Of a stretch of 64,000 nt of DNA, positions 9,287 to 61,900 are shown one piece after another. Numbering within the stretch: the stretch's first letter is position 1; every line of letters begins with the position of its first letter. The translations under genes and the position numbers were made by a program. This stretch comes from Polytrichum commune. Its lineage: Eukaryota > Streptophyta > Polytrichopsida > Polytrichales > Polytrichaceae. The stretch lies in NCBI GenBank assembly GCA_950295325.1, contig OX485804.1, forward strand, positions 9,982,001 through 10,046,000, read 5' to 3'. The notes under the pieces were generated by a model. It ran no database searches. It had not been told where the DNA came from and saw only the letters and a list, made by a program, of their open reading frames with translations.

Positions 9287-10782
9287 GGGTGACAGCTTTT
9301 TCTCACAGTTTTGCACATATCTATCATGTAGAACATCTAATCTTTATTTGTGACAAACACGCACTGTCAATTTTAGAAGACAGCAATTTTGGAATGAGCT
9401 AAAAGGGTTGGCATTCCAGTCACAATGTCCTTATTCCACTTAGCTATTGTTTTGGACACAGACTGGAAAGTGTACTCCATCATATCTTTCATCCTTGTTG
9501 TGGGAGGTTGCAAGCATCAGCTAATGAGCTTTCAAAAAATAATTATAACATTAGTTGTCGGAAGGTGCAAGTTTTACTTGGGGTATTGATGCTGCCATTA
9601 CATACAACTATAGGTGTATTAGTATAAATACTTTTCTCAAATCTAATTACGTCTTACATCCCTAGCTGCAAGTGTGGCTGGTCCATTCGACCAAGAAAAA
9701 CTTTGAATCTCATGTTCATAGCAGCAGTCAGGCCTAGGAGGAGTCAATGGAATTCAATTTTGCTGAAGTTTTCTGAAGTGAAATAGCTGCTAAATTAGTA
9801 GTGAAGTCACAGGATATACAAACACTATGAAGGAGCTGAATGTTTCTCAATTGCTCTCTTGATGGTTGCAAGTCCCTGTTTAACTTGTACCATGTGTTCC
9901 TCATATATTTTGTGTCCATAGAATGCCTCTTTCTCCCTACATATTCTTGCCGTAGATTTCATTCCAAACGTGTAGTGGTCGTAGTTAGACCTCCAGACAA
10001 TTGCCTACTTCTTGTTACCTCTCAAGAATTCCCCATTTTGGTCATCATGTGATAGACACTGAAATCAATCATTTAATCATCAACTGCACTTCTTACTTAG
10101 TTATTTACCTCGATGTTTTCCTTTGATGTAATCAGGTCCATGCAATATCCCACGTTATGATAAGTATACCACTTCAGTCAATTGTCGAATTATTTGTGAA
10201 AGGAAGAAATGGCTATTATGCCTGCCTTGCTTAAGTTTCACAAACCTACCCCATGTGTTGTCCACAAGCACTATTTGACTCAATATACCAGACAGGTACA
10301 ACTATCCCTGTTCGTCCTAAACATCTTATATTTTTCCCCAACTCAGTATCTTTTGAGATAGATGACATCATCACATGAATTCCATATCAAGCATGTTCTG
10401 AGGTTCTCTACCTTCACTGAGGTTTGCATAATGGAATCTGCGTTTGGATATGATACCTACTAGACATCTCTCACATTTAACCCAAGCACTTCGAAGCAGA
10501 ACTTTCAGATTTCTATACTCAGACTGGACTTAGATTACCTATTACTTACAGTAAGGTGCACAAAAGTCTGCTTGATATCTAGTTCTAATGTTGTTTTCAA
10601 AACATCTGCACACATTTGTCAAAACAGCCCACACAACCGCGAACATGTTGGCTTGTGGGTCAGAAACTGGATATAATAAAGAGAAACACGCTTAGGAGAC
10701 ATCTTCCACATTGGTTGCTTCCGATGTTACTGAGAGCTGATGACGCTGGAGTTCCTCAGCAACACGTGTCAGTAGCCGATTG
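9287..10782. other. LIL3 3' flank; no gene seen
   Basis: AT-rich sequence after the LIL3 stop. It must contain the 3' UTR, but no sure end signal is visible. Short ORFs here (for example 9840-10052) have no recognisable domain and irregular composition. I see no repeats with partners elsewhere in the window. Confidence 0.5.
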
Positions 10783-10864
10783 GCACCGGTGGTCTAGTGG
10801 TAGAATAGTACCCTGCCACGTCAGCAGAACGGTACAGACCCGGGTTCGATTCCCGGCCGGTGCA
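10783..10864 (+). tRNA. tRNA-Gly-GCC: tRNA-Gly(GCC) with an 11-nt intron-like insertion
   Basis: The acceptor GCACCGG pairs perfectly with CCGGTGC, and discriminator A is at 10864. The T arm CCGGG/CCCGG and anticodon stem GTACC/GGTAC are also perfect. The A box TGGTCTAGTGG (10790-10800) and B box GGTTCGATTCC (10843-10853) are intact, and a TTTT terminator lies at 10869-10872. The anticodon loop reads C-T-GCC-A, then 11 extra bases, then C. Removing CGTCAGCAGAA (10819-10829) leaves a normal 71-nt tRNA-Gly with a 7-nt loop. The insertion sits at 37/38, the standard nuclear tRNA intron site. The third-last inserted base is G, able to pair with C32 as in the anticodon-intron pair. A one-base shift of the insertion gives the same product. 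Known plant tRNA introns are mainly in Tyr and elongator Met genes. A pseudogene remains possible, but everything else is intact. Confidence 0.88.
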
Positions 10865-11281
10865 ACTCTTTTGTGGACAAGTCAAGTTTGATATTTGGTG
10901 GCTTCCCTTTATACCTCGTTATTGTATATAATTTCCTACTTTACTATCCAGGAATTTGAGCAGTGTTCCAATACTGCAGCAGTCAAACCCCCTGAATTGT
11001 CCAATTTGCTTTTCGTTGGTATCTCCAAAAGGCAGGGGTACTAAAACCAACACCCCACCCTCAAGTAGATATACATGGGGCTAAGGATCAGTCGAAGGTT
11101 GGAATTTGAATATTCATTAAACTTTCAATTGAGGCAAAAATTCTTGTCCACCAATGCTGATACGAATATGTTAGTTTATTATTTCATTTTTCTATATCAA
11201 CCACATAGCCATGTGCATATGCAATAGTGCACCCTATACCCTAGTGTCAACTCTTTCCAAGTGCATCAAACACAACTTCTT
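10865..11281. other. Spacer between the tRNA and the minisatellite
   Basis: Only the tRNA terminator (TTTT at 10869-10872) is recognised here. Confidence 0.5.
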
Positions 11282-58900: not shown

Positions 58901-61900
58901 CTTTTTGCATAAGTGTATTGGCAGTTACTAGCCTCTCTAATGTCTTCTGCTGTTCAAGCTGCTGTTCTGCTCGTGCCCACACCTCAATCATGATGCGATG
59001 TAACTCAATTGATTCTTGCCGCATCTATTCACAAACCCCAGCCAAAAGTTCCCCACAAAAGTCAGGTGACTTCACAGAATATAAGAGTTAGAATGTCATT
59101 CTGCATACCATTTCAAATGTGATCTTATGTTATTACAGCTGAGAAATCGAAGAGCACCAAGGTGAAATTCATTGTTTGGAAGCAGAAGCTTTATTGAGAC
59201 TAAAACCATTGGCTTGACGACAGGGTGCAAGAGTTCTGATTAACACTTAAAATTGTTGACTTCTGTCCCACAACAGGCCACCAGCCATTCCAACAATCTA
59301 GGAGAAATACACCATTGCAATGCCATCAAACTTCCACTTATGAACCATGTAACTTTTGGGACAAATTTCTTGCTAATTTGAAGGAGCCTTTCAAACTATT
59401 CTCCAAAACGGCGTTTTGACACTACTGATACAGCCGTTGGTCCCCCCAGACCATGGTAACTCCTCCACTGTGGATGAAGGGGCTCTAGTAAATCCTGCCC
59501 CTATATGTTCATAATAAAATTCATTTCAATTGAGCCCCAGTAGACTAATGTAGGGTCTGGAGTGCGAACTTCAGAATCTTATAGGTGGTGACTATTTGAA
59601 TGTTCTTTATAGTCACCACCATGTCAAATATCTAGCATACCAATTCCAAATTTGTACCTGTGCAATGGTCGCAGCAGAAACATCTAAACACCTCTTGAAA
59701 GCTGTGGCTACATTCATGTCAAAAGCACTGGCTGTCACCCACAGCCTATCACAATCTTCTTTTAGCTGAGCTTGCTCTTTCATAGCCTTCTCTCTGGCCA
59801 GCCACTCCCAGTCAGGACTTGTTTTCATTGGAGTGACAGCAACAACTGAACCACTACTGGTATCAAGGCCACCTTGTTGACCAGTCTGTAATGGTCTGTT
59901 TAGATTTGATTGATGAGCCTGAAGAGGATCTGCATTAGAGACATCAAGCCCCTGAAATCTTTCTTGTAAAACCCCTACTGGAGGTTCTTGAAAATCAGCC
60001 CGAGAGGGATCTAATTTCTGCAGCTTCTCTAGAACCCGCTGACGTGCAGCTTTATCCAATTCTTTTCTTGACGTATCTTCACTTAAGTTGATACTGCTTT
60101 CTCCATACCTCACATCGAATGCTTGGGTTTGTGTGCCAATATTTGGTTTATACCCTGGATGCTCTGCTTCCTGCTTGTCCTTCTCTGCTTGTGAAGAGCA
60201 ATGGATATCTTTAGCTGGTGTGTTGATAGTTGAGCCAGTATCATCTGAGCCTGCATTGTCAGTATCATTTGAAAGCTCATTGCTGCTATCAGAGGCTTCC
60301 TCCTCCTGAAAACCAGACTGGTGCAAATTGTATGATCTCACATCATCTGCAATAGCTGCTTTTCCTGAATCAGAAGGCCCAACTTGTCCCCATGCATTAC
60401 CTAGAACCACATTTACAGAATTTTTGGGCTTTGCCCAGGCATCCTCCACTTTATTTGCTTCCTTCCATACCTTCGCTGGACCTCCAGTTTTGAATGGTTG
60501 GACAGCACCCTTGCTTGCAAGAGATTTTGTAGGGCCTTCCATGTTCTTTGTGAAGAGGTGTACCAAATGATCTTTTTGGGAGGAGGTTAACTCGAAAGTG
60601 AATTTGATTTCAGAGTAATAATTTTCACTAATAGCTTCTCTAAAGATTGCTTCTGGTAATGGACTGCATGTTTGTTTTATCCGGAATTTGACCTGCAAAG
60701 ATACAAAGGAACACCCTGTTGACAGCTTGCCTTTAAAAAGATATCTGAGAAGCCATCCAACCCCATTCTTGTATTGAGCATAAATACATGGACATGCACA
60801 AGCTTCACTAGTAACTATATTCAGTAAACAACAATTGTCCAGCAGATAGCTACAGTAGGATACTGTAAGCAATCAGTGAACGGAGCAACCAGTTTGCCAT
60901 CAGGGCATATGCCACCAGGCAATCCCAGGGTGAAACAGAAAGACCCAATATGAAGGTTGCGCAAATCACTCAAAGTGATATGCACAACAACATGGTGCTC
61001 CAGCATTTACAAGACAGTCAGGTTGATTGATTACAGATTGTAGCGTAGGGACAGGTTCACAAAACACAGTACTTCCAGTTTAGCATAGGATGTAGAAGTA
61101 GGTTGTCATCTCCAAAATCATGGACAACATGACAATCTGAGACTGTTTGTAGATTGAGAGAATCACCTGTGCTGGAAATAGAGTTCTGCCTTTACCATCA
61201 GTCCAGGCACTGGGTTCTATGTTCAGAGCACCTTCCCCCACAGCCTCATAAATTCCATGAAGCATGCGTCCAGTGTAATTGAAGAGGAAGAGGCACATCC
61301 CTGGGCGTATATGTTGCACATACTTTATGTGATGTTGTGGTAATCCTGCAGAAACCAAAAGTACTAAAGCTTACGGATTGGGCAAAATATGCTTATCTTA
61401 GTTTAAATTATCTGCTTCTTGGACAAGTTTCAATAGACGAATTTTTGGACACACTTGATGGAAGCAAATAACAGGTTCGGATATGGTCACAGCCTTACTA
61501 CTTCTACTGCCTTATAAAAGACACCATCTTATATATGAAGGACAGTCTCATTCAAGCCACAAGTCCATATGGATGAGGAACTAAACATGTGAAAGAGAAT
61601 ACTATGAGGTTCAAATGAGTATCAAATCTCAGCTGCTGTAGCATTACTCAAGCTGGCCTGTCCATATTTCAAACCTAGAGTTCCATTGTACTGATTACTG
61701 TACGTAGATAATTATTCCTGTGAAAATGTCAAAAGCACCAGTTTGTTAATAGTACATGCAGACTTCTCTGCCTTACTAGGATCTGATATGCGTAACATAG
61801 ACATTTCAGGAATAACAAGAAGAGCAAACTCCTATCAAGAAAGATAAACCTTCTCATGGTTTAACACAGCTGCGTGTATGATGGTATTGGCTAAACTACA

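Follow-up and report, generated by a model that had tools for sequence, protein, structure and literature searches.

Introns in plant nuclear tRNA genes are, in the textbook view, restricted to the genes for tRNA-Tyr and elongator tRNA-Met (eMet). In a survey of 69 genomes of the flowering-plant lineage (PMC11700998), all were reported to carry eMet and Tyr introns, with other isotypes being rare; the table of that paper includes one intron-containing Gly gene, from Musa balbisiana, and the angiosperm introns it describes have a CAG motif in Tyr genes and a conserved GCT start in eMet genes. According to a study of 50 plant species (PMC12652284), Met or Tyr account for 86.87% of intron-bearing tRNA genes, and all 20 amino acids occur among them. 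For rice, 34 intron-bearing tRNA genes are listed, mostly Met and Tyr, with glycine at zero (PMC5492330). Another source (PMC9126412) gives numbers that are not broken down by isotype: 23 of 510 predicted tRNA genes with introns in Physcomitrella, 35 of 790 in Marchantia and, in its table, 160 of 312 in Chlamydomonas. The review PMC4090602 mentions two intron-bearing tRNA-Gly(UCC) genes in Kluyveromyces lactis, as well as introns in 132 of 143 genes of Cryptococcus (isotypes not given).

In the literature searched, we came across no land plant for which Gly introns had been described in most genes of an isoacceptor. None of the listed titles and abstract openings concerned Gly introns in a land-plant nucleus, and the one exact-phrase match dealt with chloroplast tRNAs (PMC7863635); predictions of this kind may already exist in databases such as PlantRNA or GtRNAdb.

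Here we describe a tRNA-Gly(GCC) gene with 11 additional bases in its anticodon loop, located in a 64,000-nt stretch of DNA (hereafter the window). Judging from sequence comparisons, these bases very probably (probability about 0.92) represent a genuine canonical nuclear tRNA intron, which would be removed by a splicing endonuclease and a ligase. The initial annotation had considered an intron in a Gly gene unusual by the plant rule. This holds as far as flowering-plant surveys are concerned, where isotypes other than Tyr and eMet are rare; however, since the host is probably a moss, the angiosperm rule need not apply and is the wrong background, and the gene is one of a set rather than a singleton.

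The tRNA-Gly(GCC) gene of the window

The gene and its immediate surroundings contain the following features (window coordinates):

10763..10768, +, CACGTG at -20 of the gene (equal spacing in 8 of 18 Gly(GCC) genes)
10783..10864, +, pre-tRNA-Gly(GCC) gene, 82 nt (Rfam RF00005, 52.9 bits; 100% copies elsewhere in the genome)
10783..10818, +, 5' exon, through base 37 (same as in L017 and L018, which are naturally without an intron)
10813..10816, +, 5' strand of the anticodon-intron helix (C32 U33 G34 C35)
10815..10817, +, anticodon GCC (from its place in the Rfam alignment and from intronless copies)
10819..10829, +, putative 11-nt intron CGTCAGCAGAA (given here in one of its four possible placements)
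10824..10827, +, intron bases GCAG, 3' strand of the helix (four pairs in 8 of 8 distinct Gly(GCC) introns, one with G-U)
10827, +, G, third intron base from the 3' end, forming the A-I pair with C32 (10813)
10828..10830, +, 3-nt bulge AA/C with the predicted 3' splice site (from the fold)
10830..10864, +, 3' exon, from base 38 to the discriminator
10843..10853, +, B box GGTTCGATTCC, by inspection of the sequence against the consensus
10869..10872, +, T4 run, probable Pol III terminator

The Rfam tRNA match runs end to end over the gene, leaving 13 anticodon-loop bases unaligned, and the sole oddity is the presence of 11 additional bases between A37 (10818) and C38 (10830), i.e. one base 3' of the anticodon. 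The stems, promoter boxes and T run are intact, as stated in the initial annotation, the T4 run starting 5 nt downstream of the gene; the decay in stems and boxes typical of a tRNA pseudogene is absent from the window copy. The prediction that removal of the insert restores a perfect tRNA-Gly has a natural counterpart in three intronless genes of this genome with the same 71-nt body. The window copy alone allows four equivalent placements of the insert, and the border was therefore set by comparison among the Gly(GCC) introns described below: for six of the eight distinct ones, 37/38, the position originally proposed, is the only possible site. The length of the insert (11 nt here, 11-14 nt across the Gly(GCC) set) is in line with the range of 6-133 nt reported for tRNA introns (PMC4090602).

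ARAGORN called the window gene tRNA-Thr(CGT), which would imply an enlarged anticodon loop instead of an intron. This call is the argument for such an identity, but CGT are simply the first bases of the insert, other copies start with GCT, ACT, TAA or AAA at the same place, and the body matches the one found in intronless Gly(GCC) genes; we therefore give the Thr assignment practically no credence. The same program called one Gly(CCC) gene tRNA-Phe and missed another (L031 and L036). Since Gly genes are misread or missed in this way, such introns may be hidden in existing gene lists.

Two other observations were made in the window. An upstream stretch, ACACGTGTCAG, resembles the insert, which suggested that the insert might have been copied from it, but this is a resemblance only. 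At 59613-60872 on the minus strand, a reading frame of 419 aa includes a Dev_Cell_Death domain (PF10539, 48.7 bits).

Glycine tRNA genes with and without introns

The searched assembly comprises 407.8 Mb in 64 contigs, with 406.1 Mb contained in seven large contigs (42-78 Mb). The plant is probably a moss and perhaps belongs to the Polytrichales, for which seven chromosomes would agree with the seven large contigs. On the plastid contig (C8, 146,561 bases), trnR-CCG is situated between rbcL and a putative accD frame. The plastid psaB had its best matches in the PDB chains 8htu, 6l35 and 7ksq (1700-1705 bits), from the moss Physcomitrium, followed by 9lut (1667 bits) and by others scoring at most 1630; a comparison of rbcL with solved structures (best match, 9chz) did not place the plant clearly. 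All genome-wide pattern and search counts given here are lower bounds, and the Rfam tRNA search of the genome scored 63 of 24,132 candidates. Fragments matching rbcL were seen on large (nuclear) contigs (C3:14137891-14138196 and C2:70106055-70106189) and are probably plastid DNA moved to the nucleus.

A split pattern with 19 fixed bases matched exactly at 19 places in the genome, compared with none for the reversed-pattern control, which argues that the insert-bearing form is not due to chance; viral contigs gave no match to this pattern. The whole-gene DNA search returned 36 matches, 18 of full length and 18 partial. The count of Gly(GCC) genes with and without the insert, suggested in the initial annotation as a check, gave 15 and 3, respectively, among the 18 full-length genes found. 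The inserts are 11, 12 or 14 nt long and occupy the same place. Nine have 11 nt and belong to the CGTCAG type (CGTCAGCAGAA in eight genes and CGTCAGTAGAA in one), two inserts have 14 nt (GCTCAGCAGCAGAT and GCTCAGCAGCAGTT), and the remaining ones occur once each (GCTCAGCAGTT, ACTCAGCAGTT, TAAATAGCAGAT and AAAACATCGCAGAT). Two of the intronless genes are neighbours on C3 near 50.0 Mb, and the third lies at C3:37.83 Mb.

Sorted by similarity of their flanks (grouping by inspection), the 18 genes fall into 11 groups, nine of them intron-bearing: L001/L002; L003/L005 (window)/L006; L004/L007/L008; L009; the L010 pair; L012; L013; L014; and L019. The intronless groups are the L017 pair and L018. Because nine flank groups carry Gly(GCC) introns, these cannot be ascribed to one duplicated accident; copies are nevertheless related by descent, so the copy counts do not represent independent events.

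It might be argued that the 15 inserts stay unspliced in a decaying family of pseudogenes, with the three intronless genes making all the tRNA-Gly(GCC). That these three genes exist, with an identical 71-nt body, fits such a scheme, and so does a C-to-T change in the T-loop/B box of one intron gene, L008, which may be dead. The 71-nt body is, however, the same in all 18 genes, intronless ones included, except L008, L012, L013 and L019, and in the last three the acceptor-stem changes are paired, so that 14 of the 15 intron genes have a body that is either unchanged or altered by paired changes, while L008 differs at one base. The acceptor stems GCATCGG and GCATCAG of L012, L013 and L019 occur in none of the three intronless genes, and GCATCGG is confined, among the 18 full-length genes, to the intron-bearing L012 and L013. 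A run of at least four T begins within 9 nt of the gene in all 18 cases.

The upstream sequences also speak against decay. CACGTG begins at exactly -20 in eight intron genes belonging to five flank groups (the window gene, at 10763-10768; L001; L002; L003; L006; L010, gene at 1156; L012; and L013) and at -13 in a ninth of the 18 genes, but upstream of none of the three intronless ones. By way of background, 64 of 9135 overlapping 60-mers of the window contain this sequence; it was absent from 20 of 20 stretches upstream of other tRNA genes and present at one of 14 Tyr/eMet loci, farther upstream than -20. CATGTG was seen close to some other tRNA genes, and a broader motif is therefore possible.

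A further alternative is that a SINE-like or other mobile repeat derived from tRNA-Gly has spread the copies, with the insert as a passenger. The CGTCAG-type intron in nine of the 15 genes, the flanks common to some copies and the existence of partial copies would be compatible with this, but each copy has its own T run, and in at least seven of the partial copies only the 3' half is present, truncated where a LINE ends (see below). Moreover, the shared non-tRNA 3' body of a tRNA-derived SINE was not seen: the downstream flanks, compared over up to 380 nt, can be aligned inside a group but not between groups, and there is consequently no 3' body common to the copies. A mobile repeat thus seems highly improbable as the source of the set.

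The second glycine isoacceptor is organized in a similar way. The whole-gene search for Gly(CCC) gave 14 matches; four are full-length Gly(CCC) genes and the others are partial copies, or cross-matches to Gly(GCC) genes and halves. Three of the four carry an insert (AAAAAATCGGAGAT, AAAAAACGGAGAT and AAAATCCGGAGAT) and one, at C3:2297674, is intronless; a candidate for another intronless gene, C1:4750758, was rejected as a chance match lacking a tRNA body. For Gly(TCC), the anticodon-arm pattern (which would miss genes with a different arm) produced 26 matches, 24 uninterrupted and 2 interrupted. Both interrupted matches were dismissed as chance, there being, by eye, no tRNA around either of them. 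The bodies of the interrupted genes are thus those of Gly(GCC) and Gly(CCC), which places them outside the classical plant set of Tyr and elongator Met hosts.

For these classical hosts, the Tyr pattern, which required 8-17 inserted bases and so could not match intronless genes, gave 12 matches with 11 distinct introns of 10-11 nt. The eMet pattern is short (about 14 chance matches are expected by estimate, and the reversed control gave 2); of its 15 matches, ten were used, with six distinct introns of 10-12 nt. These ten were selected by the form GCT...GAG, which contains the tested letters, and the other five were dropped.

Pairing between intron and anticodon loop

The A-I pair joins base 32 to the third intron base from the 3' end, and it is C-G in all eight distinct Gly(GCC) introns and all three distinct Gly(CCC) introns. 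In the window gene it is formed by G10827 and C32 (10813), just as had been noted in the initial annotation. The pairing extends further: intron bases -3, -4, -5 and -6 pair with 32, 33, 34 and 35 in each of the eight Gly(GCC) introns (32 of 32 pairs, one G-U), and the Gly(CCC) introns form the same four pairs, 32:-3 to 35:-6, without exception (12 of 12). All 11 distinct Gly inserts therefore pair with 32-35 and have G as the third base from the 3' end. In 20,000 letter shuffles, neither the Gly(GCC) nor the Gly(CCC) pairing count was reached. None of the other offsets from -1 to -6 pairs fully, the counts being 5, 8, 0, 9 and 25 of 32 for Gly(GCC), where offset -6 (25/32) is a near rival, and 6, 6, 6, 6 and 3 of 12 for Gly(CCC).

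The Gly(GCC) introns pair through the word GCAG (GTAG in one case), those of Gly(CCC) through GGAG. Both sides of the pair 34:-5 change between the two sets, from G-C (once G-U) to C-G, which indicates that the intron word follows the anticodon; when the introns of one set were combined with the loop of the other, four Watson-Crick pairs were formed in 0 of 8 and 0 of 3 cases. The two isoacceptors thus constitute a natural covariation test. The Tyr (11 distinct) and eMet (6 distinct) introns all have C32-G(-3) and U33-A(-4) and are all paired at 34:-5, but 35:-6 pairs in 10 of 11 Tyr introns and in none of the six eMet introns, where it is A-A. With the fourth pair missing from eMet, the sets have no more than three pairs in common.

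Neither the length nor the 5' part of the Gly inserts is constant, the latter having no common sequence, and yet the pairing rule is kept; the decay of unspliced pseudogenes would have lost it. A single decayed copy among many intronless ones was the case that the initial annotation had set against its own interpretation, and the opposite was found: 15 of the 18 genes contain the intron, and the helix is maintained while the intron sequence changes. Taking into account also the intact bodies and the upstream element, we regard a pseudogene family as improbable.

Arms with ten of the 11 distinct Gly introns were folded, and each of them gave the same structure, with the stem lengthened by four pairs and a 3-nt bulge. 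Shuffle z-scores of the arms ranged from -0.97 (L009) to -3.73. The value for the window arm, -2.02, is modest, with 7 of 200 shuffles folding equally well, and an excerpt of 25 nt from this arm scored -1.11. Folded freely, the 82-mer does not adopt a cloverleaf; the anticodon-intron arm is present in its MFE structure and absent from the centroid. The helix is best viewed as supportive rather than as proof, because extracts of yeast and Xenopus are reported not to require pairing between loop and intron for splicing (review PMC4090602).

A canonical intron would be processed as follows, the steps being modelled on eukaryotic tRNA splicing as outlined in PMC4090602. RNA polymerase III, to judge from the internal boxes and the T run, would make the precursor, in which GCAG of the intron would pair with C32-U33-G34-C35 and lengthen the anticodon stem. 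The paired arm would leave a 7-nt loop containing the 5' splice site (between A37 and C) and a 3-nt bulge containing the 3' splice site (between A and C38). The splicing endonuclease (TSEN/Sen) would then cut at both borders, 37/intron and intron/38, and the plant tRNA ligase would join the halves into the 71-nt body that the three intronless genes encode directly. For tRNA_int_endo, one exon match was found in the genome (46.7 bits, profile positions 3-54 of 85); the stretch includes one TGA, perhaps an exon border.

Gly(GCC) reads the codons GGC and GGU, and Gly(CCC) reads GGG. Since most of the genes found for these two tRNAs bear introns, their supply would, by gene counts, depend largely on splicing.

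LINE junctions and comparison with known systems

Many of the partial Gly genes are halves. Seven Gly(GCC) 3' halves begin at gene base 26, where the anticodon stem starts (GTACCCTGCCA...; base 25, A, is shared), and directly 5' of them lies AACCTCGGTGAGGTCTTCACA (with one mismatch in one copy). At C2:40646317-40653140, two halves surround about 6.7 kb with Exo_endo_phos endonuclease, reverse transcriptase and zf-RVT frames, and the 21-nt sequence is therefore taken as the 3' end of a LINE. It occurs 59 times in the genome within 2 mismatches (control, 0). A B box lies within 70 nt downstream in 20 of the 59 distinct junctions (60 rows, one duplicate), whereas among random 70-mers from the window the frequency was 36 of 5000; by this 70-nt test, the remaining 39 junctions have no B box. 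Among the 20 there are seven clear Gly(GCC) halves and two that look like decayed ones. Judged by eye against known tRNA sequences, three others are presumably Lys(CTT) and one Glu(CTC). The 3' end of this LINE thus recurs inside tRNA genes, mostly Gly, at the start of the anticodon stem. The loci concerned are L035 (C2:40646200-40653300), L004:1098-1287, L016, L020, L022, L025-L027, L040-L056, L059 and L065-L098.

Seven 5' halves, five of Gly(GCC) and two of Gly(CCC) (L021, L023, L024, L029, L032, L062 and L064), run into mutually related sequence of about 70-86% identity. We considered this to be the 5' end of the LINE, but it has no match to the LINE copy at L035. At L021 and L023, a second short tRNA-Gly piece (ACCCTGCCA...) precedes the related sequence.

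At C2:13229342-13229531, a 90-nt remnant is bracketed by a 5' half that runs as far as the intron (CGTCAG) and by a 3' half of this type. The locus has a 17-bp duplication, GTACCCTGCCACGTCAG. The idea that the LINE made the intron is not supported by this duplication, because it covers the anticodon stem and a portion of the intron, and an insert of 11 nt would not result from it. The elements tabulated in PMC5911963 insert upstream or downstream of tRNA genes; Dada DNA transposons are described as inserting inside tRNA genes (PMC3706591).

A wider scenario, which we advance tentatively and consider rather unlikely as a whole, is that the intron has become the normal state of Gly(GCC) and Gly(CCC) in this lineage, though not of Gly(UCC), so that the decoding of glycine would require tRNA splicing; many of the Gly(GCC) genes with introns would have their own CACGTG element at -20, and the intron-bearing form would have spread through turnover by the tRNA-gene-inserting LINE together with gene conversion.

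As regards a canonical intron itself, its kind is already known, and what appears new for a land plant, as far as the literature searched goes, is the Gly host gene family. The textbook restriction to Tyr and eMet would thereby be broken across most of an isoacceptor and not by one stray gene. The covariation between intron and anticodon points to the substrates accepted by this lineage's splicing endonuclease, and intron gain and loss become datable in related species.

The closest known counterparts are the nuclear Tyr and eMet introns of plants. Those of Tyr(GUA), like the Gly introns, are located at 37/38; in this genome they have 10-11 nt and present C/UAG at -5 to -3 facing CUG of 32-34, but they belong to another isotype. 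The eMet introns share the position and a similar length (10-12 nt) and have GAG at -5 to -3 facing CUC; they differ in their GCT start (here part of the selection) and in the missing fourth pair. The Gly intron of K. lactis resides in Gly(UCC), whereas here Gly(UCC) gave only uninterrupted genuine matches. Fungi and algae likewise have canonical-position introns beyond Tyr and eMet, although they represent distant lineages.
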